Shown here one piece after another: positions 1 to 16,306 of a stretch of 16,306 nt of DNA. Source of the DNA: Bacteroidales bacterium (GTDB taxonomy: Bacteria > Bacteroidota > Bacteroidia > Bacteroidales > WCHB1-69); assembly GCA_031254735.1 (NCBI GenBank), contig JAIRTU010000115.1:1-16306 (forward strand), in the 5' to 3' direction. Under the pieces are notes generated by a model, which was not told the origin of the DNA, made no database searches, and worked only from the letters and a program-made list of their open reading frames with translations. Made by a program: the position numbers and the translations under genes. Each line of letters opens with the position of its first letter. The first letter of the stretch is position 1.

Positions 1-1509
1 CGAGACCGCATTCACTTCCACACCGCCAATTTGTTGCCCTGTGATACGGTGCAAAACATATACATTTCTTTCATCTTGGGCAATCTTCCGCTGTATAAAC
101 GTAAAATCGGTAACGATAAAATTGCCCGATGCCTGTTGCTCTGCTTCTTTGTTTCCTTTTTCCTCAATGGTAAACTCGTAAATACCATACGTTCCTGTGG
201 TGATTTTCCATTCAATTTCTGTCGAATAAAAGGTTTCGTCTACCGGCACTTCCAACTCTTCGGTTTTGACCAATGTACGCTTGGGATACGCCCTCCATTT
301 ATATTCGTTGTGTTTAAACAAATCGTATTCTTCTGCCGTTGCGTCCACGCGATATATTTTCATCTCTAAACGAGAAATATTTGCAACGCTACCCAAAAAG
401 ACCAATTCACTCGCAGGACTTGCCACCTCGCTTGTCATTACCCGAAGTGATTTTTGTTCCAATGTCAACAAAATATTTTGCAATAAATAACCGGAAGGCG
501 ACTTCGGAAAGCGTTTTATCCCGCTTTGGGCAATATCGTAAGCTTTTTTTCGGAGGGTGTCCCCTCTTTCCGACTGCGTATAGTAATAACCTGCCATTTC
601 TGCCAAAACAGGCACTGCCTCCGCCCTGTCGCCGTATGTTTCGCATAGCAATTCAAGGCTTTTCCGATACCAATCGTCTGCTTTTACGCTCTCCGAATGT
701 TCTTTTACATACTTCAAACGAGAAATATCCACATCTATCAATGCCTGAATATTGTTTGTCTTTCGATAAAAATCAAGCAACATCCGGTACAGCTCTACGG
801 TCTTGCTTTCTGCCGACTCTTTATATTTTTCTTCCGAAACGATGTTGATAAACAATTCGGCGGGAAGAAAATACAGCGTATCTCTCAATGGATTTTTCAC
901 CATTGCCGCATCGTGCAAATTGCCGAGAATCATGATTGCCCTGTCCGCTAAAAAATCAAACAACGTCTGCTGCAAATTGTCTCCCGCCGTGATCAAAGGC
1001 TTGAAACATTTCACCGTCAGGGTTTGCAACGTGTCCGTGTCTTGCAACGAAAGCCGGAGTTCTTCGCTTATCCTGTCGAAAAACAGGTTTTTACTCCACA
1101 AACGAATGTCATCGGGCAGATAATCCACCACCTGCGAACGCCTGTTGATACTGTATCGCTCCGACGAATAATACATAGAATACAGCTCTGCCGCCATCGA
1201 ATGCAGCAGCGCCCGTTGCTCTGCGGCGGTGTAATGGGCGGCAAAATGCTGAAAACTGTCAATCACCGAAGGGGCGTCGTCCGGGTTTTTGACCAACGTG
1301 AAACGCATCTTATAGATATATGCTTTCACCGTTTCGTTAAAATTCTCTGCTTTTCTTGCCTCCGCAAAAATGCTTTCAACCTCTTTCAATGCCGATTCGG
1401 GCAATTGTTGCTTCGCCAACTTGTCTACTTTTTCCCACCTGCCGGCATACTGTGCCGATGCCGAAAGAAACACTAAGGATAACAAAATGAATATCACCGA
1501 TTTTTTCAT
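1..1509 (-). CDS. Alpha-2-macroglobulin-like secreted protein, N-terminal part (runs off left edge)
   Basis: The minus-strand frame is open from an ATG at 1507-1509 to base 1, giving 503 residues with no stop, so the gene is partial at its 3' end. Residues 1-20 form a signal peptide (MKKSVIFILLSLVFLSASAQ) without a lipobox cysteine, so export to the periplasm or cell surface is likely. Residues about 20-370 are mostly helical and hold a TPR-like stretch. From about 385 the chain turns beta-rich. Near the edge it reads ASGNFIVTDFTFIQRK and then VLHRITGQQIGGVEV, which matches the macroglobulin (MG) domain pattern 'F-V-TD ... TG-P-GA-V' of the bacterial alpha-2-macroglobulin family. Full-length Bacteroidetes members are, from memory, near 1900-2000 residues, so about a quarter is visible. 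The thioester and bait regions cannot be checked. The family traps or inhibits proteases or acts in envelope maintenance; its role here is unknown. It is separated from the upstream operon by a terminator and has its own promoter. Confidence 0.72.
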   Translation of the reverse strand, partial: MKKSVIFILLSLVFLSASAQYAGRWEKVDKLAKQQLPESALKEVESIFAEARKAENFNETVKAYIYKMRFTLVKNPDDAPSVIDSFQHFAAHYTAAEQRALLHSMAAELYSMYYSSERYSINRRSQVVDYLPDDIRLWSKNLFFDRISEELRLSLQDTDTLQTLTVKCFKPLITAGDNLQQTLFDFLADRAIMILGNLHDAAMVKNPLRDTLYFLPAELFINIVSEEKYKESAESKTVELYRMLLDFYRKTNNIQALIDVDISRLKYVKEHSESVKADDWYRKSLELLCETYGDRAEAVPVLAEMAGYYYTQSERGDTLRKKAYDIAQSGIKRFPKSPSGYLLQNILLTLEQKSLRVMTSEVASPASELVFLGSVANISRLEMKIYRVDATAEEYDLFKHNEYKWRAYPKRTLVKTEELEVPVDETFYSTEIEWKITTGTYGIYEFTIEEKGNKEAEQQASGNFIVTDFTFIQRKIAQDERNVYVLHRITGQQIGGVEVNAVS

Positions 1510-1535: not shown

Positions 1536-1566
1536 CAAAGGTAGTAAAAATTATCGAACACCGCAA
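1536..1566 (-). promoter_or_regulatory. Predicted Bacteroidetes promoter of the alpha-2-macroglobulin-like gene
   Basis: On the minus strand TACCTTTG (complement of 1536-1543) fits the Bacteroidetes -7 consensus TAnnTTTG. A TTG (complement of 1564-1566) lies 20 bp upstream as the -33 element. Transcription would start near 1529, leaving a leader of about 20 nt before the ATG at 1509. The same nine-base string CAAAGGTAG occurs at the promoter of the decarboxylase operon (6491-6499). Confidence 0.6.
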
Positions 1567-1638: not shown

Positions 1639-1666
1639 TATTCACTATTCGTTATTAGTTATTCAC
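1639..1666. repeat. Four 7-bp direct repeats (TATTCAC type)
   Basis: Four contiguous heptamers can be read: TATTCAC, TATTCGT, TATTAGT, TATTCAC. They share TATT in the first four positions and differ in the last three. The array ends 17 bases before the hairpin array. Function is unknown; such heptamer runs could be replication-slippage products. Confidence 0.6.
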
Positions 1667-1683
1667 TGTTTAACGTCCCTAAA

Positions 1684-1769
1684 TCTGAGTCTCTCTCAGA
1701 TGAACGTCTGAGTCGGTCTCAGATGAACGTCTGCCTTGGTGGCAGATGAACGTCTGTGGTTACCGCAGA
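1684..1769 (+). repeat. Tandem array of four 23-bp hairpin units with covarying stems
   Basis: Each unit is a 6-bp stem with a 5-nt loop followed by a 6-nt linker TGAACG. The units start at 1684, 1707, 1730 and 1753. The stems are TCTGAG/CTCAGA (units 1 and 2), TCTGCC/GGCAGA (unit 3) and TCTGTG/CGCAGA (unit 4). Loops are TCTCT, TCGGT, TTGGT and GTTAC. Unit 3 differs on both arms yet still pairs fully. Unit 4 pairs with one G-U wobble if read as plus-strand RNA; read as minus-strand RNA the same position is an A-C mismatch. The last linker is degenerate (TAAACA). No protein frame explains the pattern. It could be a structured RNA, a protein-binding array or an intergenic repeat family. Confidence 0.8.
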
Positions 1770-1834
1770 TAAACACGCAATAACACACTTCCAACGCCAA
1801 AGCATAATCACGATGCAGACAACCTTTGAAACCC

Positions 1835-1858
1835 AAAAAAGGCTGTCTTTCGACAGCC
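1835..1858 (-). terminator. Rho-independent terminator of the decarboxylase operon
   Basis: Read on the minus strand, a 7-bp GC-rich stem GGCTGTC/GACAGCC (1841-1858) closes on a GAAA tetraloop. It is followed at once by six T residues (1835-1840). It lies about 36 bases after the mmdA stop codon, as expected for the end of the five-gene operon. Confidence 0.88.
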
Positions 1859-1894
1859 CATAAATAATTTATTTAAAAAAAAATAACAATAAAT

Positions 1895-3454
1895 TTACAA
1901 GGGTAAATTATCGTGTTTTTTTGCAGGGTTTTCCAATCGTTTATTTTGAATGGCACGCAAGGCTTTAATCACACGATAACGAGTATTACGCGGTTCTATA
2001 ATATCATCAATATAGCCGAAACTTGCGGCGGCATAAGGATTTAAGAACAGTTTATTGTATTCTTCTTTCTTTGCCAGCACGGCGTCTGTTTGTTTTTGCG
2101 GATCGGTTTCGGCTTTGATTTCTTTGGCGTACAACACTTCTACCGCACCGTCTGCACCCATAACGGCAATTTCTGCGGTGGGCCAGGCATAGTTGATGTC
2201 GTTGCGGAGTTGTTTACAGCCCATTACAATGTGCGAACCGCCGTACGATTTACGCAAAGTAACCGTTACTTTCGGAACGGTAGACTCTCCGTAGGCATAC
2301 AACAATTTAGCCCCATGGGTGATCACAGCGCCATACTCTTGTGCCGTCCCCGGCAAAAATCCCGGAACATCAACCAAAGAGACAATCGGAATATTGAACG
2401 CATCGCAAAAACGAACAAAACGCGCTCCCTTGCGAGAAGCATTGATGTCTAAAACTCCCGCCATGTGCGACGGCTGATTGGCAACAATACCCACCGTCAT
2501 TCCGCCCATGCGTGCAAATCCGATGATGATATTTTTTGCATACAGCGGATGCACTTCCAAAAACTCGCCGTTGTCTACGATAGAAGAAATAACGTGTTTC
2601 ACCTCGTAGGGTTTGTTTGGGTTGTCGGGGATAATGTCGTTCAACTGATCGCTCACTCTTTCCACAGGGTCGGTGCATTCTATTTCAGGAGGCGTTTCCA
2701 TATTGTTTGAGGGCAAAAAACTCAACAAATGACGTATCATTTTTATTCCGTCTTCTTCGTTTTCCGCAACAAATTGAGCCACGCCCGACTTGGTGGAATG
2801 GATACTTGCCCCGCCCAAATCTTCTGTTGTAACATCTTCGCCTGTAACGGTTTTTACTACTTTCGGACCGGTCAAAAACATGTAACTTGTATTTTTTACC
2901 ATCATCACAAAGTCGGTGAGGGCAGGGGAATATACCGCCCCGCCTGCACAGGGACCAAAAATAGCGGAAATCTGCGGCACAACGCCCGAAGCCAGAATGT
3001 TTCGTTGAAATATCTCCGAATATCCCGCCAGACTGTTTACGCCTTCCTGAATACGTGCCCCGCCCGAATCGTTGATTCCGACCACAGGAGCACCCACTTT
3101 CATGGCTTGATCCAATACTTTACATATTTTTTCGGCATGAGTTTTCGACAGCGAACCTCCCGATACGGTAAAATCCTGAGCAAAAACATATACCAAACGT
3201 CCGTCGATAGAACCGTAGCCGGTAACAACGCCGTCGCCCAAGTATTTTTCTTTCTCCATACCAAAATTGGTACATCGGTGCGTTACAAACATGTCAAATT
3301 CTTCAAAACTGCCTTCGTCCAACAGCATATTGATACGTTCTCTTGCTGTGAATTTTCCTTGTGAATGTTGTTTCTCGATGCGTTTTTCACCGCCTCCGAG
3401 TCTTGCTTTTGCTCGAAGTTCCAACAATTCGTTTACTTTATCTTGCATTGCCAT
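1895..3454 (-). CDS. mmdA: Methylmalonyl-CoA decarboxylase alpha subunit (carboxyltransferase)
   Basis: This 519-residue protein is the carboxyltransferase that moves the carboxyl group of (S)-methylmalonyl-CoA to the biotin of MmdC, releasing propionyl-CoA. It is full length for the acyl-CoA carboxylase beta family and has both crotonase-like halves. The N-half carries [13 protein letters not shown] (126-138) and the oxyanion-hole segment [13 protein letters not shown] (166-178). The C-half carries [11 protein letters not shown] (363-373) and [10 protein letters not shown] (403-412). By sequence alone it could be a propionyl-CoA carboxylase beta chain. No biotin carboxylase gene is present, and it shares an operon with a sodium-pump beta subunit and a separate biotin carrier, so decarboxylase is the better call. 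It is the last gene of the operon, 33 bases after the epimerase stop, and is followed by a strong terminator. The protein begins MAM; the first ATG (3454) was kept, the one at 3448 is possible. Confidence 0.92.
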
Positions 3455-5506: not shown

Positions 5507-6427
5507 TTATTTTCTGTTTGGAGATTTTTTAAACAATAAATTTTTTGAAGCCCATGCGGGTTGTTCGTTCAATTGGCGATTTAATCGGAAGCCGGTTTGT
5601 TCCACTTCGTGTTGATTGCCGAAATAAAGATGCAAAGCCATTGCGATAGCCGCCACATCGGTATCTTCTGCCGACGTTGCCTGAACAGCGGAAACTTTTT
5701 CTACCTCTTCCTGTTGCAGTTTTATTTTCTCTTTTGTTTCATTTGCATTTGCCTTGCGTTTGAAGTATCTTCCTGTAAAAATAAAAACAAGAGCCAAAAG
5801 GAGTAATACAATAAATACGATCGACATGGTGGTTGCGGTGATGAGAAATCCGTATTTATCGGTTTCGGCGTATCTTTGGGCGCGTGTTTTTTCCACTTTG
5901 GTGTAGTTGATGGCGGCGGGCGTAGGCTCGTCCAATATTTGCCATGTCGCTTTTTCGATAGGAACATTTTCCATTCTTCCGAAAGAAATATCCGGCACTT
6001 GTGCCTCAATATTATAACTTACGCTGTCGAGCAGTTCTTTTCCGCTTTGGTCGAACAGAGCCAAAAAGCCCACTTCGTCCAACGAGAAATTCACATGAAA
6101 AATACCTCTGTCCACGCTGTTGTAAGCGAAGAATAAAGCGTATGTCCGGGAGGCGATTCTTGTTTTGGGGTCGCCTTTGGGAATGCGGTATTTGGTTGGG
6201 TTGTCAATATCGTTTGTAACGTAACAACCGCCAACATCTGCTGTTGCATAACCGGTGTTGAAGACTTCAAACCAACCGCTGCGAACACCGTATTGGTCAA
6301 TGTAGTTTGAACCGTTTTTCACCAACACTTCGTTGATACGAAGGTCTCTCACTCCTTGTCCGAATACGGTCGAAAAAGACGTTCCAATGAACAAAAACAA
6401 GAAAATTCTTGAAAATATAACTCTCAT
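5507..6427 (-). CDS. OadG-like membrane subunit fused to an N-terminal lamin-tail domain
   Basis: This 306-residue protein is the first gene of the operon. It has a signal peptide (1-24, cleavage after VFGQ likely). A domain at about 28-175 looks like a lamin-tail (LTD) fold: LRINEVLVKN, then GWFEVFNTGYATADVGG, then YRIP. One transmembrane helix (about 193-218) is followed by a charged helical linker. The C-terminal segment DVAAIAMALHLY (257-268) is the conserved end of OadG/MmdD-type gamma/delta subunits. The tail (about 290-306) is basic, as in other OadG-like proteins. OadG proteins are usually under about 120 residues; the extra 180 residues are the extracytoplasmic LTD. Its expected role is assembly and stabilisation of the pump complex; what the LTD binds is unknown. 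The start at 6427 lies downstream of a consensus promoter. Confidence 0.82.
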   Translation of the reverse strand: MRVIFSRIFLFLFIGTSFSTVFGQGVRDLRINEVLVKNGSNYIDQYGVRSGWFEVFNTGYATADVGGCYVTNDIDNPTKYRIPKGDPKTRIASRTYALFFAYNSVDRGIFHVNFSLDEVGFLALFDQSGKELLDSVSYNIEAQVPDISFGRMENVPIEKATWQILDEPTPAAINYTKVEKTRAQRYAETDKYGFLITATTMSIVFIVLLLLALVFIFTGRYFKRKANANETKEKIKLQQEEVEKVSAVQATSAEDTDVAAIAMALHLYFGNQHEVEQTGFRLNRQLNEQPAWASKNLLFKKSPNRK

Positions 6428-8739: not shown

Positions 8740-8962
8740 CTTTGTCAATTTTAATCGAAATCAGGCGGAAACAATTTGGCAGTTAAATTTTTATTAATTG
8801 ATGAAATAATATATTGGCATTTCGCATAAGAAACAAATTATAATTTTTGTAAATAAAATGCTATTAAAAGATTGCAAGCAGTAACCGAAATATAGAATAA
8901 ATGGGAGTAAGCCGAAAATCCTGTGTAAATAAGAGTAGGCAATAATTTAAAAAATATTTATA
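8740..8962 (+). other. Long AT-rich 5' leader of the giant gene
   Basis: About 220 bases lie between the predicted promoter and the ATG at 8963. The stretch is strongly AT-rich, with no open frame of note, no recognisable riboswitch and no strong hairpin. Bases just before the ATG are almost all A and T, which is the usual Bacteroidetes translation signal in place of a Shine-Dalgarno site. Confidence 0.45.
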
Positions 8963-11900
8963 ATGAAAAGAATAATCACATTACCGATTTTGATGTTGTG
9001 TATACTGCAATCAGTTTATTCACAACAGGTATACCAAGAAGACTTTGACGGGAATACCGTCTCGTTTACCGCAACACCGCTTCATTCTTGGATACCCAAC
9101 ACTAATTATTATCTGCCCGGTTTTACCCATGCAGCGGTTTCCAAGTCATATTTGGGGTTTGTGCCAAATCGAATAGGCGATACCACTATTTTGCAACTTG
9201 CAGGTGCGTATAATTTTTCGGGATATTCGTATGTACGACTTCAGTTTAGCCATATCTGTAAGGTATCGCCCAGAGACACAACCTTGATACAGTTTAAGCG
9301 ATCTTGGGAGTCGAATTGGACGACAATCCATTCGGATTGGTATGGCGGAGAAGCCGAAAATTACGCCCATCAAGGGTTTAATGCGGCAAGTTACCCACAA
9401 TGGCGTTCAGACGACAGTACGATTATTCCTTCTCAATCGTGGTGGAAAGACGAAATTTTTGACATGTCGAACGATTGGAATAATGAATCTTCTGTGCAAC
9501 TGCGTTTTGTGATTATCCACGGCGCTGTTGCCAATACACAGGCTTCTTTGGGGTGGTTGTTGGAGAATATAATGGTAACCGCTGCCCCTTACGAACTCTT
9601 TCTTCCCGAAGCCGCATTTCTGCCTCCTTTGGTTAAAGATACAGTATATAAAACCGGACCTTGGGCTATCAACGCCAAAGTAATGAGTCGCACATCGGCA
9701 GATATACAGCAACCTCGTGTGGTATATACGGCGAGTAAAAACGGCGTACCTTTCAAAACGGATTCTGTGTTAATGACGAATATATCGGGCGATTCTTTGT
9801 GGACGGCTCATATCGAACAGTTTGAAACAGGCTCAGAGGTTTCGTATTCTATCACAGGAAAAGACATGAATAATAATTCGTCAAAAATAGAGGCAAAATA
9901 TACGATAAACATACCACCTTCCGGCACACAAACAGGTTTTGCTGCGATCGAGCTTGATGCACGTACTATTTTTACTGTTCCGATAGGTCTGCGAGATAAT
10001 TTCACGTGGACACGCCAGTTGTATCTTGGCTCGGAACTCTCTCCGAATAATACTGGCGGGACGATTACAAAAATGGCGTGGCATTACGCCTCAAACAATA
10101 CATGGATGTATACCAAGCAATCTTGTTATTTCAAAGTGGTAGACGATACCGTGATGACTTCCAATGCTTATGTTGATCCTCTATCAGACGGAGCCGCATT
10201 GGTATATCAGGGAAATATAGGAGCGACAGCGTCCGGTTGGGTGGAAATAGATTTGAGTACGGAATTTTTTCTGCCGCCCGGCAAGAATTTGATGATATAT
10301 TGGAATCATCAGCATGGGGCAAATTTGGGTAGTGGTTATGCTTGGAGTATTCACTCGACAGGACAAAATATGACAGCTTACGGGGGTTCTCTCACCAGCT
10401 TTAGCGGTGCTGCGAGTGGGTATAATTTTGCGACATATCGTCCTGATGCACGATTTTTTATTGTAGGCGGTCCCTCTTTGAATCATTCGGCAGCCATATC
10501 TTCCATCGACATTACCGATACGGTGGCAGTAGTTGCCAATGTTTCTACTCCTCTGTATGTCAATTTGAAAAACAAAGGATTGGATACCCTGCGAAGTGCT
10601 GTTATTTATCATATTATCAATAATGGAACGCCAATTCAAACCGCTTACAATTCTCCTTTCGGCTTAACTTGGGATATGAACGATCGAGTATGGTTAGGCG
10701 ATTTTCAGGCAAAGGTAAACGGAAAAGATACCATTACAGTTTGGGTAGAATATCCCAACGGAATGTATGATTCTACTACCTTTGACGACACTTTGACAAA
10801 GATAATCTACGGATCGTCGGATTATAATATGTATTTTGTCGAAAAAGTTGTTGATACCGTTACCATTACGGGTCCTTTTGCTATTTCGGCACATGTTTCT
10901 ACTCATTCTTCGCAAGGAGGCGGAAATGTAGTTTTGGAGGTGAATTCTACAAAAGACGGACAAACAACAACGCTTTTGTTGTCCATGCAATATAATTCCA
11001 AAAGGAAATTGTATGTAACCGAAATTCCCCAAATTCCATTCGGCACGCACGTTGTTTATAGTATTACCAAAACCGATTATTTGGGTAATGTGGTTTCCAT
11101 TGTCGACAGTTTTTATGTAAAGCGAGAAACAGCCAATCAACAGACAGGCAATTATAAGTATATAGGAAGTCCTGCATCGCCTTATACGATTGACAATATT
11201 CCGTATAATACTCAATGGGAATATGGTTGGAGCAGAGTTTTGGTACTTGCTTCGGAATTGAATGCCGGCAGTCTCGGATGTATCATAAATTCCATAGCCT
11301 ATTATCCCAACAGTTACAACAGAGGAACTATGATTAGACAATCGGTTTATTTTAAGGCGGTATCGGAAACGAACATAACCGATGCCGATTGGATAGATCC
11401 CATAGCGGAGGGCGCCTCTCCGGTATTCGCAGGCAGTGTACCACCACCTCCAAACAATACATGGATGAATATAACGCTGGATACCGAATTTGAGCTTCCT
11501 CCAAATTTAAATTTAATGATATGGTGGTTGAATGAATCAAATGGATATTCGGGACTAACCACGTGGAAATCGGAAAATGCGTCCGCCAACGATATGTCGG
11601 CATTCGCTTTCGATATGACGTCGCTCACGGGAGGAAATCAGGGTAAGGGAAAAACTACATCACGCCCGGTGATGCGTTTTGAAGTCTTTAATGCCGCAAG
11701 TTTGGACGAAGACCATTCCGTTGCGTTAAAAACAATAGAATCGCCTTCGGAAAAAATAAATACAGTCGGTCAGCCGATACCAATAAGTGTATCGCTTAAA
11801 AATTTGGGAAGAAATGATCTGGATTCCTGTTTGATAAATTGGTCACTCAATGGTCAACTGCAAGCGCCGACCTATATCTACAGAGGACGGTACAATGGAA

Positions 11901-14900
11901 AATTGTGGGGAGATTTTTCCGATACCGTTACCATTGGATATTATCTTCCGACAGAAGGAGAAGTAGCCGATATAATCGTTTGGGTGAGCATGCCGAATAA
12001 CGAAATAGACAATATTACCAACGATGACACTTTATCGATAAAAACGATAGCCTGTACACATCCTTTGACAGGAGTATACACCATAGGTTCATCGCCTGCG
12101 GCAGATTATCGCAATATGGAGTCTGTTATCTGCGCATTGAAACAATGTGGCATGTCGGGAAAGCTCACACTGCGGTTGGAAGCAGAAAAGCATACCGAAA
12201 GTATTGATTTATCGGCATTGAATGCCATTGCAGGAAATACTGATACCATAGAAATCGTTTCATTATCGGGTAATGCAAGCAATACCATTATCGAAACCGA
12301 TAACTTTGGTATTAAATTGGGTGCGGTCAGCAATGTGCTTGTTAAAGATATTACCATAAATCTTTTGGGAGCAGGATATGGCATTGAGTTGGGTTCGGGC
12401 AATAATATAGAAATCAACAATTGTTATATCTATTTGGATACTGCTGTTGCCGCGGGATTATCCGCAAGCAATGCCAATACACATATTGGTATTTATAAGG
12501 CACAATCTGTCATTTCAAACAATGTACGGATAGTAAACAATTTTATTTCGGGAGGATATTACGGAACAATGCTTTATGGAGGATATCCGTTGGTTGCAAA
12601 TGTGGATTGGCTGTATGAAAACAATCGTCACGAAAATGCGTATATGTATGGTGCGGTGTTGCGTAATGGTGGTTTCATCAGTATATCCGATAATGTTTTC
12701 TTACCTGCGTCAAACAGTGCATATACTGCCACCGATTGGTGGGGATTGACGGTTGAAGAAAGCTATGCAGGCGTAATAGCAAACAACAGAGTGAATGCAA
12801 GTAGACATCCGAATTTAATACATGGTAGCGGTATATATTTGTATGCGAACAATTCGGCTTACGCCATGCCACCGATTTTGGTAAAAAATAATGAAATTAT
12901 TATGAATGCCAAATCAGACAGCCTTTACGGAATGAATTTATATAATACCTCTGCCGATGTATACCATAATTCTATTTATATAAACAGCGATTCTCTGTCG
13001 AAAAATTGTGCCTTACGTGTAGAATCGGACAAAACGGTGAACGTTTCCAACAATAATATTGTATCTGCGTTTGGCTATGTACTTTCTTATACGGATTCTT
13101 CCACTGTTTCCGATTACAACAATCTTTATACCGGCGGTACAGTATTGGGAAATTATGCAGGAAACGTTTGTAGCAATTTCTCTTTCTGGCAAGAAATTAC
13201 AGGAAAAGACGAACATTCGGTTTCTCTCATGCCTGTGTTTGTGGATGTTAATCATTCAATGGAATTATCTTCCAATTTTGAAGACTATTTGTGTCCTGTA
13301 TTTTCCAATGTTTCGACAGATATAAACGGCAATCAAAGACTTGAATTTACAACAATGGGTTGCCATACATTTGAACCGTATAGCAACAATTATATTTTTT
13401 TCGATTTTCACCAATGGAACAATGTGGTATTTACGGGACAAATAATACCGGTAAATATTTATGTACGGAATATGAGTGCAAATCCGATTAATACACTTAC
13501 GTTTGAATGGTCGTTGAATGAAGCAACGCCAACACCATACACGTATACATTTGCCGTTCCGCTTGTTACTGTTGCCGATACGGTTATTACCATAGGTACT
13601 TTTACCGTTTCTCCACAGGATAAAGTAGAAGTGTGGTTGCGATCGATCAATGGAGATATAAATCACGCTCATAAAACTTCTATTTCTGCCCGTTCGCAAA
13701 TGGAAAAGCTGGCAGAGTTTGTTCCACCGTTTGTAGAAGATACCATTTATAATCTGACCTTTGACGTGAATGCTTTAATACGTGTGCAACCGGATGCTTT
13801 GACAAGGCAACCTCAATTGGATATTACATCCATAATCAATGAAACGGATACTGCTTATTCGTCTGCTTTGATGACATTGACCGATGGTATTTGGCACGTT
13901 ACGCTTCCGCAGCAATATTATAACAGCCGGGTTATTTATTCTTTAACCGTAACCGATCTGACAGGAAATACTGTCACGATCACAGATTCTACCTGTATAA
14001 AATACACTCCGTTTCTAAAACAGGATACCGTACTTATAGGAACAGAGGCAAGAGGAGGTTTTAATGCGTGGTCGAATCCATATAAGGTAGATTATGAATA
14101 TTCATGGTCGCGGAATTATTATATGGCGTACGAAATAGATAAAGACAAAAAAGAAGGAGGTTATATAAAGAGTATTGCATTTTATAACGATCAAGCCTAT
14201 GGAAACTCAACCTCGGTTAGAAATGTGTCTTTTTATTTAAATGCGGTTACCGACTCTATTGTCGGAGACGAATTGTATATAGATCCTGTAGCAGACGGTG
14301 CTACATTGGTTTGGGGTCCCACTACAAGCAATACCTATGGAAAAGGTTGGGTAACATTTGAATTGGATACGCATTTTTATCTTCCGCCCAATATGAACCT
14401 GTTGGTATATTGTGAAAACCGCAACGGCATTTTCAGCAATTTCACGAATGCTGTATGGCAATACTCGGAACAAAATAAGTACACATCCATTTCCGATTAT
14501 TACGATCTTCATTTTCCATCAGACATCACATCTCCTTTTCGACGGAAAAGCTTTAATCGACCGAACATGCAACTTGAAATTTATATTCCGTCCGATCTGT
14601 ATTCGGGATATAACCTTGCTGTTGCCTCTGTGGTAGAACCTGTAAACAAAGAAGAGGAGTTGTGTACACCGTATCATATTCCGGTAAAGGTCGCGGTTGT
14701 AAATTTGGGAACGGACGATATAGATTTTGCCGAGCATAATCTTCAAGTGGGCGTAGAAGTAACAGATCCTTTAGGAAATGTGTCTTTTTATGCCAACATC
14801 ATTTCTACAGGAGGGATAGCTTCGGGAAAAACCGATACCTTGGAATTTATCCCGATATTACCGCTTTTAGACAGGGGAAGTTATGCCATTAAAGTATGGA

Positions 14901-16306
14901 TAAACAATGCGGTAGATTTTATTCCTTATGATGATACGCTGCAAAGTCAATTTGTTTCTACAAAAGACGATCTGCCCATACTCACCGACTTTAGCAACGG
15001 AATACCGCCACAATTTGTTTCTTCTATTGAAGCAGGCGACAGTAAATGGGAATATTTTAGCGATCCATCATTTGCCGTTCAGCCGGATTCCGGTACGGCA
15101 ATGATACGTTTTGCAGGAAATGCAGGAACAGCCTCCCGCTTAAGTACTCGACAATTGAATTTGTATCAGGCAACTAATCCTTTTGTGGAATTTTGGTATT
15201 ACCACGATACCAATGCCGCAAAAAATGATTATTCGTACACCGATATAAATATTTTTGTAAACGGAGTTGTACGCAATCTGGATATAATTTATTTACGCGA
15301 TCCCGGTGGAAAACACGGGTGGACATATTATAAGTATACGTTAAATCAGTTTACCATGTCAACAGAGTGTGTATTGATACAGTTTGAGTCGATGAACAGA
15401 TATTCGGGAACATCGCAATACATTGATTATATACATATATCATCGGAGGCAGACGCTGCCGTATCGGAGATTATTATAATGCCGACGCCGGAAATGTGTA
15501 AACTTGATCAATCACGTATTGGCGTGGTGATAAGGTCGATACGTACGCGGGCGATTGTTTTTGAAGACAGCGCTGCATTGATATTGGATTTCAACGGAAC
15601 AATGTATTCTGTTCCTTTGCAGGGAAAAACACTGGAAGGTTTTTCCTCAGACACGGTATGGATAACTCCCAATCCTGTTTTTTCGGTAGGAAACAATACC
15701 TTAATGGCGTATTTTAATATGCCGGTAGATAATGCTCCCGGCAACGATACGGCGAAAAGGATAATCGACGTCGAACCCAAATTAGAGGTGGCTATCCATA
15801 ATCTGAGCGATCCGTCCACTCCGACTTTGGCAGGATTGGAGAATCCGCAGAAAATCACTATTAAGAATACAGGCAATATAGAATTGTCTAATATCGGCTT
15901 GATATTGAAAGTAAATGCCCCGACAGCCACGCCACCGTACTCTTTTACTACGAAAAAAGTGTACACGCAACCGTTGGCAGCCGGCGATGTGATAGATATT
16001 ATTTTCGATGAAGCCTATATCGTTCCATGGGCAGCTCGGTACGATGTGGAAGTGCTTGCTTACTTGGAATGCGATTCGGCAAATATTCGTGCATCCGACA
16101 ATGTGCAGGAATATGTCAACATGACCGATTTGTATATAGTGGAGGTTACTCGTCCTGTTGTTGGCACAAAAGACAATGTCGGTGAGGCAATAAGCGTATC
16201 TTTACGTATCAAAAACAGAAATATCGGTAAGATATATAATGAGGGCGATGCAAAAGTCGGCATTATGATCAAAGACGACAATGGCAGCATACGCAGTACT
16301 GTGGCA
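8963..16306 (+). CDS. Giant secreted multimodular surface protein (partial, at least 2448 residues)
   Basis: A single frame runs from the ATG at 8963 to the last base without a stop (2448 codons), so the gene is partial at its 3' end. The start MKRIITLPILMLCILQSVYS is a signal peptide. I read these modules: a jelly-roll/MAM-like domain (about 21-215); Ig-like B1 (221-318), surface beta-sandwich C1 (322-505), CARDB-like D1 (505-616); B2 (624-721), C2 (728-908), D2 (913-1030); a right-handed beta-helix (1031-1471); a further D-like domain (1473-1575); B3 (1586-1680), C3 (1685-1872), D3 (1874-1999); a second MAM-like domain (about 2005-2160); two more CARDB-like domains (2162-2383); and the start of another. 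C modules resemble a beta-sandwich common in Bacteroidetes surface proteins. No catalytic motif was recognised. Adhesion or matrix binding is inferred. Type IX secretion is expected, but its C-terminal signal would lie beyond the window. Confidence 0.85.
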   Translation, partial: MKRIITLPILMLCILQSVYSQQVYQEDFDGNTVSFTATPLHSWIPNTNYYLPGFTHAAVSKSYLGFVPNRIGDTTILQLAGAYNFSGYSYVRLQFSHICKVSPRDTTLIQFKRSWESNWTTIHSDWYGGEAENYAHQGFNAASYPQWRSDDSTIIPSQSWWKDEIFDMSNDWNNESSVQLRFVIIHGAVANTQASLGWLLENIMVTAAPYELFLPEAAFLPPLVKDTVYKTGPWAINAKVMSRTSADIQQPRVVYTASKNGVPFKTDSVLMTNISGDSLWTAHIEQFETGSEVSYSITGKDMNNNSSKIEAKYTINIPPSGTQTGFAAIELDARTIFTVPIGLRDNFTWTRQLYLGSELSPNNTGGTITKMAWHYASNNTWMYTKQSCYFKVVDDTVMTSNAYVDPLSDGAALVYQGNIGATASGWVEIDLSTEFFLPPGKNLMIYWNHQHGANLGSGYAWSIHSTGQNMTAYGGSLTSFSGAASGYNFATYRPDARFFIVGGPSLNHSAAISSIDITDTVAVVANVSTPLYVNLKNKGLDTLRSAVIYHIINNGTPIQTAYNSPFGLTWDMNDRVWLGDFQAKVNGKDTITVWVEYPNGMYDSTTFDDTLTKIIYGSSDYNMYFVEKVVDTVTITGPFAISAHVSTHSSQGGGNVVLEVNSTKDGQTTTLLLSMQYNSKRKLYVTEIPQIPFGTHVVYSITKTDYLGNVVSIVDSFYVKRETANQQTGNYKYIGSPASPYTIDNIPYNTQWEYGWSRVLVLASELNAGSLGCIINSIAYYPNSYNRGTMIRQSVYFKAVSETNITDADWIDPIAEGASPVFAGSVPPPPNNTWMNITLDTEFELPPNLNLMIWWLNESNGYSGLTTWKSENASANDMSAFAFDMTSLTGGNQGKGKTTSRPVMRFEVFNAASLDEDHSVALKTIESPSEKINTVGQPIPISVSLKNLGRNDLDSCLINWSLNGQLQAPTYIYRGRYNGKLWGDFSDTVTIGYYLPTEGEVADIIVWVSMPNNEIDNITNDDTLSIKTIACTHPLTGVYTIGSSPAADYRNMESVICALKQCGMSGKLTLRLEAEKHTESIDLSALNAIAGNTDTIEIVSLSGNASNTIIETDNFGIKLGAVSNVLVKDITINLLGAGYGIELGSGNNIEINNCYIYLDTAVAAGLSASNANTHIGIYKAQSVISNNVRIVNNFISGGYYGTMLYGGYPLVANVDWLYENNRHENAYMYGAVLRNGGFISISDNVFLPASNSAYTATDWWGLTVEESYAGVIANNRVNASRHPNLIHGSGIYLYANNSAYAMPPILVKNNEIIMNAKSDSLYGMNLYNTSADVYHNSIYINSDSLSKNCALRVESDKTVNVSNNNIVSAFGYVLSYTDSSTVSDYNNLYTGGTVLGNYAGNVCSNFSFWQEITGKDEHSVSLMPVFVDVNHSMELSSNFEDYLCPVFSNVSTDINGNQRLEFTTMGCHTFEPYSNNYIFFDFHQWNNVVFTGQIIPVNIYVRNMSANPINTLTFEWSLNEATPTPYTYTFAVPLVTVADTVITIGTFTVSPQDKVEVWLRSINGDINHAHKTSISARSQMEKLAEFVPPFVEDTIYNLTFDVNALIRVQPDALTRQPQLDITSIINETDTAYSSALMTLTDGIWHVTLPQQYYNSRVIYSLTVTDLTGNTVTITDSTCIKYTPFLKQDTVLIGTEARGGFNAWSNPYKVDYEYSWSRNYYMAYEIDKDKKEGGYIKSIAFYNDQAYGNSTSVRNVSFYLNAVTDSIVGDELYIDPVADGATLVWGPTTSNTYGKGWVTFELDTHFYLPPNMNLLVYCENRNGIFSNFTNAVWQYSEQNKYTSISDYYDLHFPSDITSPFRRKSFNRPNMQLEIYIPSDLYSGYNLAVASVVEPVNKEEELCTPYHIPVKVAVVNLGTDDIDFAEHNLQVGVEVTDPLGNVSFYANIISTGGIASGKTDTLEFIPILPLLDRGSYAIKVWINNAVDFIPYDDTLQSQFVSTKDDLPILTDFSNGIPPQFVSSIEAGDSKWEYFSDPSFAVQPDSGTAMIRFAGNAGTASRLSTRQLNLYQATNPFVEFWYYHDTNAAKNDYSYTDINIFVNGVVRNLDIIYLRDPGGKHGWTYYKYTLNQFTMSTECVLIQFESMNRYSGTSQYIDYIHISSEADAAVSEIIIMPTPEMCKLDQSRIGVVIRSIRTRAIVFEDSAALILDFNGTMYSVPLQGKTLEGFSSDTVWITPNPVFSVGNNTLMAYFNMPVDNAPGNDTAKRIIDVEPKLEVAIHNLSDPSTPTLAGLENPQKITIKNTGNIELSNIGLILKVNAPTATPPYSFTTKKVYTQPLAAGDVIDIIFDEAYIVPWAARYDVEVLAYLECDSANIRASDNVQEYVNMTDLYIVEVTRPVVGTKDNVGEAISVSLRIKNRNIGKIYNEGDAKVGIMIKDDNGSIRSTVA
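9623..10810 (+). repeat. B-C-D supermodule, copy 1, of the giant protein
   Basis: This covers residues about 221-616. B1 starts PPLVKDTVYKTGPWAINAKV and ends VSYSITGKDMNNNSSKIEAKYTI. C1 has the hallmark string DPLSDGAALVYQG, then GWVEIDLSTEFFLPPGKNLM. D1 is a CARDB-like domain with PLYVNLKNKGLDTL and ends FDDTLTK. Confidence 0.65.
10832..12052 (+). repeat. B-C-D supermodule, copy 2, of the giant protein
   Basis: This covers residues about 624-1030. B2 reads VEKVVDTVTITGPFAISAHV, then VVYSITKTDYLGNVVSIVDS. C2 has INSIAYYPNSYNRG, DPIAEGASPVFAG and ITLDTEFELPPNLNLMIWW. D2 has ISVSLKNLGRNDLDSCLINW and ends TNDDTLSIK. It is collinear with copies 1 and 3. Confidence 0.65.
12053..13375 (+). other. 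Right-handed beta-helix region of the giant protein
   Basis: This covers residues about 1031-1471. It opens with LTGVYTIGSSPAADYRNMES, the usual entry to parallel beta-helices in Bacteroidetes secreted proteins. Short repeated rungs rich in Asn, Ile, Val and Gly follow, for example NVLVKDITINLLGAGYGIEL, NNIEINNCYIY and NVSNNNIVS. Beta-helices often bind or cleave polysaccharide, but no lyase or hydrolase residues can be assigned. It ends at FTTMGCHTFEP, where an Ig-like domain takes over. Confidence 0.7.
13718..14959 (+). repeat. B-C-D supermodule, copy 3, of the giant protein
   Basis: This covers residues about 1586-1999. B3 reads VPPFVEDTIYNLTFDVNALI, then VIYSLTVTDLTGNTVTITDS. C3 has IKSIAFYNDQAYGNSTSVRN, DPVADGATLVWG and GWVTFELDTHFYLPPNMNLL. 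D3 has PVKVAVVNLGTDDIDF and ends PYDDTLQ. It is separated from copy 2 by the beta-helix and one extra D-like domain. Confidence 0.65.

Follow-up and report, generated by a model that had tools for sequence, protein, structure and literature searches.

A probable palindromic 23-bp minisatellite in an intergenic gap of a Bacteroidales genome, with analogous hairpin arrays in a relative

A 16,306-nt stretch of DNA from a Bacteroidales bacterium (the window) carries, between two genes, an array of four head-to-tail 23-bp units at 1684-1775, each made of a 6-bp stem, a 5-nt loop, and a 6-nt linker. The letters of the stems differ among units while the stems continue to pair, which raises the question of what keeps them paired: selection on an RNA, a binding protein, copying processes that act on the DNA itself, or chance.

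Architecture and genomic setting of the array

The tandem repeat at 1684-1775 is real beyond doubt. TRF assigns it a period of 23, 3.2 copies, 86% matches, and a score of 90, and the word CAGATGAACGTCTG occurs in it three times exactly; allowing up to 3 mismatches raises this to 4, compared with a mean of 0.86 for shuffled sequences (4 or more in 2 of 200 shuffles). A first-pass annotation had described this row of hairpins and placed it at 1684-1769; the start stands, but the end shifts to 1775, since the last linker extends the array. Two loop bases are all that separates unit 1 from unit 2, whereas unit 3 departs from unit 2 by four stem bases and one loop base, and unit 4 differs from any other unit at 8 or 9 positions. 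The loops of the four units have no common motif. Coordinates of the units and of the surrounding features are collected in Table 1.

Table 1. Features of the array and its surroundings (window positions)
Feature	Position	Strand	Details
Large protein, N-terminal 503 aa, truncated by window edge	1..1509	-	Open frame
Bacteroidetes-type promoter candidate for leftward gene	1536..1566	-	TTG-N20-TACCTTTG; consensus scan
Short TTCACTA/TTATTCG-like repeats, immediately left of array	1639..1670	+	Sequence reading, TRF
Imperfect inverted repeat bracketing array, left arm (GTTATTCACTGTTTA)	1658..1672	+	12/15 matches to 1770-1784
Unit 1	1684..1706	+	TCTGAG-TCTCT-CTCAGA-TGAACG
Unit 2	1707..1729	+	TCTGAG-TCGGT-CTCAGA-TGAACG
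Unit 3	1730..1752	+	TCTGCC-TTGGT-GGCAGA-TGAACG
Unit 4	1753..1775	+	TCTGTG-GTTAC-CGCAGA-TAAACA; one G-T stem pair; sole unit with altered linker (TGAACG in units 1-3)
Imperfect inverted repeat, right arm	1770..1784	-	Overlaps last linker of array
Intrinsic-terminator-like hairpin and T run, end of decarboxylase operon	1840..1859	-	1 found, 0.6 expected in region shuffles
Carboxyl transferase subunit, 519 aa, decarboxylase operon	1895..3454	-	PF01039 677.4 bits; mmdA model 830.7 bits, under cut-off of 998.8

The gap that holds the array separates two co-directional (leftward) genes, with the terminator-like site of a decarboxylase operon (1859-1840, minus strand) on one side and a promoter candidate for the next leftward gene on the other, just as the first-pass annotation had it. 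Profile matches in the operon to the right of the array are to a carboxyl transferase subunit, methylmalonyl-CoA epimerase, a sodium-pump beta subunit, a biotin carrier, and an OadG-like protein. (In the protein encoded at 5507-6427, the OadG-like region forms the C-terminal part and is preceded by a lamin tail domain match that falls below the Pfam cut-off.) The protein to the left has no Pfam or NCBIfam match at an E value of 0.001, and its relatives are weak (26% identity for the hit with the best E value), many of them lying in frames of about 2,000 aa. Farther along the window, a DUF805b RNA (Rfam RF02914; 36.5 bits, gathering score 35.6) occupies 8902-8941, just ahead of an open frame at 8963-16306 that encodes at least 2,448 aa and continues past the window end.

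Only one TAnnTTTG site is present in the gap (1543-1536, minus strand), preceded by a TTG box at a distance of 20 nt, and we take this site to be a candidate promoter of the Bacteroidetes type (consensus TTG/TAnnTTTG). The gap scan detected no TAnnTTTG promoter reading into the array, and the terminator scan of the region detected no plus-strand terminator for it. A sigma-70-like consensus scan returned three matches against 1.2 expected: two overlapping ones (1936-1907, minus strand) are aimed at the array, but from beyond the terminator, and the third (1780-1808, plus strand) is directed away from it. The word CGCAATAAC occurs at 1562-1570, at the promoter candidate, and again at 1776-1784, at the right edge of the array.

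An array lying 118-209 bp upstream of a candidate promoter could be an operator, in which alternating TCTG/CAGA half-sites bind a dimeric protein upstream of the leftward gene. The stem-base TCTG and CAGA are indeed invariant across all four units, with spacings of 9 and 6, but the distance from the promoter is large, and the arms beyond TCTG and CAGA pair despite their differing letters, for which half-sites have no need. Nor was the layout found intact in the genomes searched. With 3 mismatches allowed, the pattern TCTG-9-CAGA-6-TCTG-9-CAGA-6-TCTG is matched in 10 of 104 genomes of the family (5 for the reversed control) and in 60 of 375 genomes of the phylum (15 for the control), and the matches listed for both sets have 2 or 3 mismatches and lack the TGAACG linker run. 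These matches are probably due to chance, with the excess over the controls arising from common CTG/CAG words, and we hold the operator to be distinctly improbable.

The imperfect inverted repeat that brackets the array was equaled in 2 of 1,000 shuffles with 30-nt flanks, in 37 of 1,000 with 60-nt flanks, and in 40 of 300 with 100-nt flanks, as well as at 10 of 414 other positions in the window. This evidence is weak because the tight flank was picked post hoc. A bracketing repeat would suit an element resembling BrickBuilt (discussed below); defining an element by it was considered and rejected, the signal being unusual for the tightest flanks only.

Paired change in the stems

All 24 of the 24 stem cells in the array pair, and two of the six pair positions have changed on both sides (three cells), the remaining four never varying, which bears out the initial description of stems that change on both arms. 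When covariation is assessed statistically within the array, the paired changes are present, but 19 of 500 shuffles, and 30 of 500 in an independent run, pair as well as the array does. Covariation support is weak, because there are only four units with three changed cells. Substitution statistics can also be approached from the arms themselves. In a simulation given the four arm changes of unit 3 and the two of unit 4, the chance that these units keep all their pairs under independent random substitutions is 0.012 x 0.065, or ~8e-4, and the paired change therefore needs explaining. Selection on an RNA is just one possible cause; template switching during replication is another.

RNA folding of 1660-1790 yields z scores of -4.49 (plus strand) and -3.50 (minus strand), and none of 200 shuffles was equally stable on either strand. 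Pairing within units is confirmed as the sole scheme that fits all four. Pairing across units, which the first-pass annotation had reduced to four pairs at the two other junctions, does fall to 4 of 6 pairs at junction 2/3; at junction 3/4, however, 5 of 6 remain, including one G-U. For 1683-1776, the plus-strand fold prediction nevertheless joins unit 1 to unit 2 (mean probability of 0.97, against 0.03 for pairing within the units) and forms separate hairpins for units 3 and 4 only. The proposed selection for a row of small hairpins is not upheld by these results, in which three cells have changed in four units and the first two units are predicted to pair together; the orientation toward a plus-strand RNA, drawn from the G-U wobble, rests on one stem G-U pair, and no TAnnTTTG promoter leads into the array.

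The hairpin row could still be a functional RNA, transcribed either on the plus strand or on the minus strand as the leader or tail of a neighboring mRNA, with its stems under selection; it might, for instance, bind a protein or act as a sponge, with linker and stem base as the conserved part. The complete pairing with its two-sided changes, the plus-strand z score, and the single G-T stem pair, valid on the plus strand only, are what such an RNA would show. The loops without a common motif, the predicted joining of units 1 and 2, and the lack of a TAnnTTTG promoter reading in and of a plus-strand terminator speak against it, as do two results given below: the array was found neither in Rfam nor in the searched genomes of relatives, and stems in analogous arrays are often broken on one arm. 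We regard a functional RNA as unlikely.

Relatives of the array and analogous arrays

Searches for relatives of the array itself were negative. In Rfam, no family reaches its gathering score anywhere in the gap, nor does the array itself draw a weaker match, and blastn with window positions 1640-1800 returned no match among plasmids and phages and none among 104 genomes of the family. A covariance model, R1, for which the only input was the array itself, taken as three overlapping unit pairs, produced 0 matches at an E value of 0.01 in 393 genomes of the order (under stricter filters, with at most 15 candidates scored per listed genome), so that the check suggested in the first-pass annotation came back empty. 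At an E value of 10, R1 found weak matches in 9 of 18 relatives (best E value of 0.285); one, in G053 (C273, E value of 1.38), is located inside a 23-bp hairpin array, and the others that we viewed were rejected as relatives, being single hairpins or chance. The word CAGATGAACGTCTG, with 1 mismatch allowed, gave one single match, in one of six genomes. Viral contigs searched with three patterns returned 3, 1, and 0 stretches and no relative of the array: the three for the first pattern are single matches, and the one for the second contains two linker words but, judged by eye, no stem to match. A search of the open-licence literature turned up nothing on such arrays in this lineage.

A relative identified through the neighbor protein is a Bacteroidales metagenome-assembled genome (L001; 56% identity over that protein), and the closest genomes, reached through its family, are G051 (69%), G052 (69%), and G053 (66%), a ranking by one protein with which the operon proteins broadly agree. 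The orthologous gap is not comparable in these genomes because a different gene follows the carboxyl transferase in G051, no tandem array is present in the 505 bp beyond this gene in G052, and the contig stops at the gene in G053 and G076. At L060 and L061, from two relatives, no more than 14 nt lie between the end of the carboxyl transferase gene and that of the contig.

To place the array among other tandem repeats, we scanned 195 nonviral loci (contained ones removed; 991,470 bases) for periods of 18-30 and at least 2.5 copies, the loci being sampled by contig number rather than at random (G051 C1-C40, G052 C1-C20, G053 C1-C59, and a few chosen ones). The 39 arrays found are distributed over G053 (19), G051 (10), G052 (2), other genomes (7), and the window (1). 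A stem of at least 5 in the consensus unit is a feature of eight of them: six in G053, one in G051 (among 10 arrays in 280 kb), and the window array, with none of the two arrays in the 76 kb from G052. The six in G053 make up two dispersed families; one (L172) was chosen via a lead, and the other five are on contigs taken by number.

The first family has a 22-bp unit (AAAAGC...GCTTTT and a 4-nt linker) and is represented in G053 by 40 match rows, or 19 distinct places by count; it was not found in 17 other genomes (for G051, 40 of 65 candidates were scored). Its flanks are conserved in most copies, with 13 of 19 sharing at least 90 nt on the left and 13 of 19 sharing at least 50 nt on the right, the exceptions being L249 and L250, which have little flank in common, and L252, which has lost most of its array. 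A full copy, estimated at about 250 bp, consists of leader, array, and tail (L232-L247, L249, L250, and L252, in a 1.6-Mb assembly). The next right-hand frame (at least 70 aa) is co-directional with the element at 15 of 19 places, and 11 of these frames start no more than 103 nt from the array, counts that carry no orientation control; the element could serve as a portable leader or promoter. At 12 of the 19 places the nearest frames on both sides share one direction, and the co-directional neighbors of the window array, which resemble this arrangement, count in favor of a functional RNA.

The second family has a 23-bp unit (TCGGAC-ATATA-GTCCGA and a 6-nt linker), with 8 match rows and at least 4 places in G053 (7 of 115 candidates scored), and was not found in 103 other genomes. 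Among L262-L265, the three copies other than the query align to it over about 240-250 nt at 85-90% identity, and the linkers flip orientation within the array. Compared in register with units 1 to 4 of the window, the 23-bp unit matches at 13, 13, 12, and 10 of 23 positions. A match of 13/23 in this fixed register is reached by 0.5% of random hairpin units, and one in any rotation or strand by 6.3%; unit 1 then reaches 14 (1.8%). The 12-mer GAATAGTGAATA lies near both the window array and the G053 23-bp array and nowhere else in 1.2 Mb of loci, on opposite sides relative to the linker, and blastn of the window stretch found nothing in G053. Judged by sequence, the G053 arrays are best treated as analogues of the window array, not as demonstrated homologues. 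G053 also contains short GTCCC...GGGAC palindromes (L149:2833-3130 and others), some with TTTCTACCAACATTTT-like flanks: 7 are present in the first 104 kb examined there, as opposed to 1 in 127 kb of G051 and 0 in 83 kb of G052. The window has a GTCCC at 1675, left of the array, where we considered a truncated hairpin of this type.

Stem changes in these analogues are both two-sided and one-sided. Among 78 extracted units of the 22-bp family, 46 keep all six pairs (a count that leans toward pairing, as the extraction pattern favors A/T-ended stems), and pair 5 is G-C in 57, G-G in 18, and C-C in 3, which leaves it unpaired in 21 of 78 units; the family pairs no better than shuffles do (319 of 500 as high). 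In the 23-bp family, the sixth position is unpaired in 3 of 7 extracted units, as scored by eye. In contrast, in the 15 units analyzed at L174, pair 5 alternates in step between T-A and C-G, and pairing exceeds that of shuffles (0 of 500 as high), although pair 4 is C-C in 7 of 15. The full repeat there (L174:138-483) comprises about 16 units of 22 bp with AAAGTA/TACTTT, AAAGCA/TGCTTT, and half-broken AAACC/GCTTT stems, and the G051 array (L224:485-710) comprises about 11 hairpin units, GACATG-AAAAAA-CATGTC, with a 21-bp period. The one-sided changes in G053 weaken rather than refute the case for hairpin selection, because the G053 arrays are analogues and not demonstrated homologues; L174, where pairing exceeds shuffles, points the other way.

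The scan also bears on whether the array is merely an ordinary hairpin duplicated in tandem by chance, confined to this locus, unique, and without a family. Tandem repeats of such a period are common (39 in 991 kb), this one has four units only and no relative in the searched genomes, and the shuffles noted above pair equally well in 19 of 500 and 30 of 500 cases. However, stem-bearing units are a minority (8 of 39), the six in G053 all belong to dispersed families, and random substitutions rarely keep stems. We give chance duplication about one chance in five.

Interpretation and comparison with known systems

The reading that we prefer, to which we assign an even chance, makes the array a palindromic minisatellite and probably a copy of an intergenic repeat element specific to its lineage, with pairing that is kept at the DNA level. 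Slippage or unequal exchange would have amplified a 23-bp unit containing an inverted repeat into a head-to-tail row, and the pairing of the unit's arms would be renewed by template switching, which copies one arm onto the other, and by exchange of units, with no selection on an RNA. The paired changes in the array would then have originated by template switching. By analogy, the array may belong to a family dispersed through the genome that it comes from; this reading stems from G053, among the three closest genomes, where hairpin arrays with 22-23-bp units are dispersed and share flanks. Several facts stand against an element: the only known copy of the array is the one in the window, no searched genome, G053 included, contains a sequence relative, and G053 is no closer than G051 and G052 (66% versus 69%, by one protein), in whose sampled contigs stem-bearing arrays are scarce. 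Against the DNA-level part of the reading, selection would equally explain the ~8e-4 retention of stems, and L174 pairs beyond shuffles. The suggestion in the first-pass annotation of an undescribed intergenic repeat family holds as to kind, there being two dispersed families of such arrays in G053.

A broader proposal, which we consider doubtful and put on a par with chance duplication, would make the array one member of an as yet undescribed class of mobile, lineage-specific hairpin-array elements in these Bacteroidales: 22-23-bp hairpin units between a short leader and tail, which would settle between genes in the direction of transcription, act as portable regulatory leaders, and have, for one common layout, a sequence of their own in each species. 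If this class is real, BrickBuilt-like hairpin minisatellites would be recurrent in the order and not a peculiarity of Porphyromonas, turnover would be so fast that close relatives keep the layout and not the letters, and the many copies per genome would offer a setting in which to separate selection from copying machinery as the source of paired stems. Little would follow for the window array by itself, and nothing yet points to a job for it in the cell.

Among known systems, the minisatellite/MITE BrickBuilt of Porphyromonas gingivalis is similar in kind. Its published description reports intergenic 23-nt units without spacers, counts 19 copies in strain ATCC 33277, and, bar weak translated matches, names P. 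gulae as the only other source of homologues (PMC4596501). The window array likewise has spacerless head-to-tail 23-nt units in an intergenic position, dyad symmetry that predicts stem loops, and no Rfam match, and the narrow host range of BrickBuilt is paralleled by the G053 families (PMC4596501). It differs in sequence, as the array unit matches the BrickBuilt consensus AGAYCATARTATCCTCTCRTRTG at 11-13 of 23 positions in the best rotation and strand (shuffled mean of 11.5; 17% reach 13), and in the absence near the array of IS5-like terminal inverted repeats of the GAGACCTTTGCA type; with up to 3 mismatches, such repeats number 15 in the window against 11.2 expected, with none at 386-2688. 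We therefore rejected BrickBuilt as the identity of the array on both unit sequence and terminal repeats.

CGTC-tagged REP elements are small palindromes with stem variants reported from five phyla, including Bacteroidetes, and HH dimers predominate (PMC3733652). The array shares the small palindromes and the stem variants, but its stem is 6 rather than 8-9 bp and does not start with AT, the TC of CGTC lies inside the stem, and its units run head to tail in place of HH dimers (PMC3733652). As the CGTC tag is not outside an 8-9-bp stem of the kind described there, membership in this group was rejected.

Template switching in replication can create and maintain perfect stems (PMC8794818), and stems that have changed on two sides without the need for two independent substitutions are what the array has in common with such hairpins, although the cases shown there are histories of RNA genes. 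A further parallel is the pair of families in G053, which, like the window array, have symmetric 22-23-bp units between genes, mostly 3-5 units per array; their letters differ, the window array lacks their common flanks, and both families display one-sided stem changes, but the 23-bp family has a layout identical to that of the window array, a 6-5-6 hairpin followed by a 6-nt linker.
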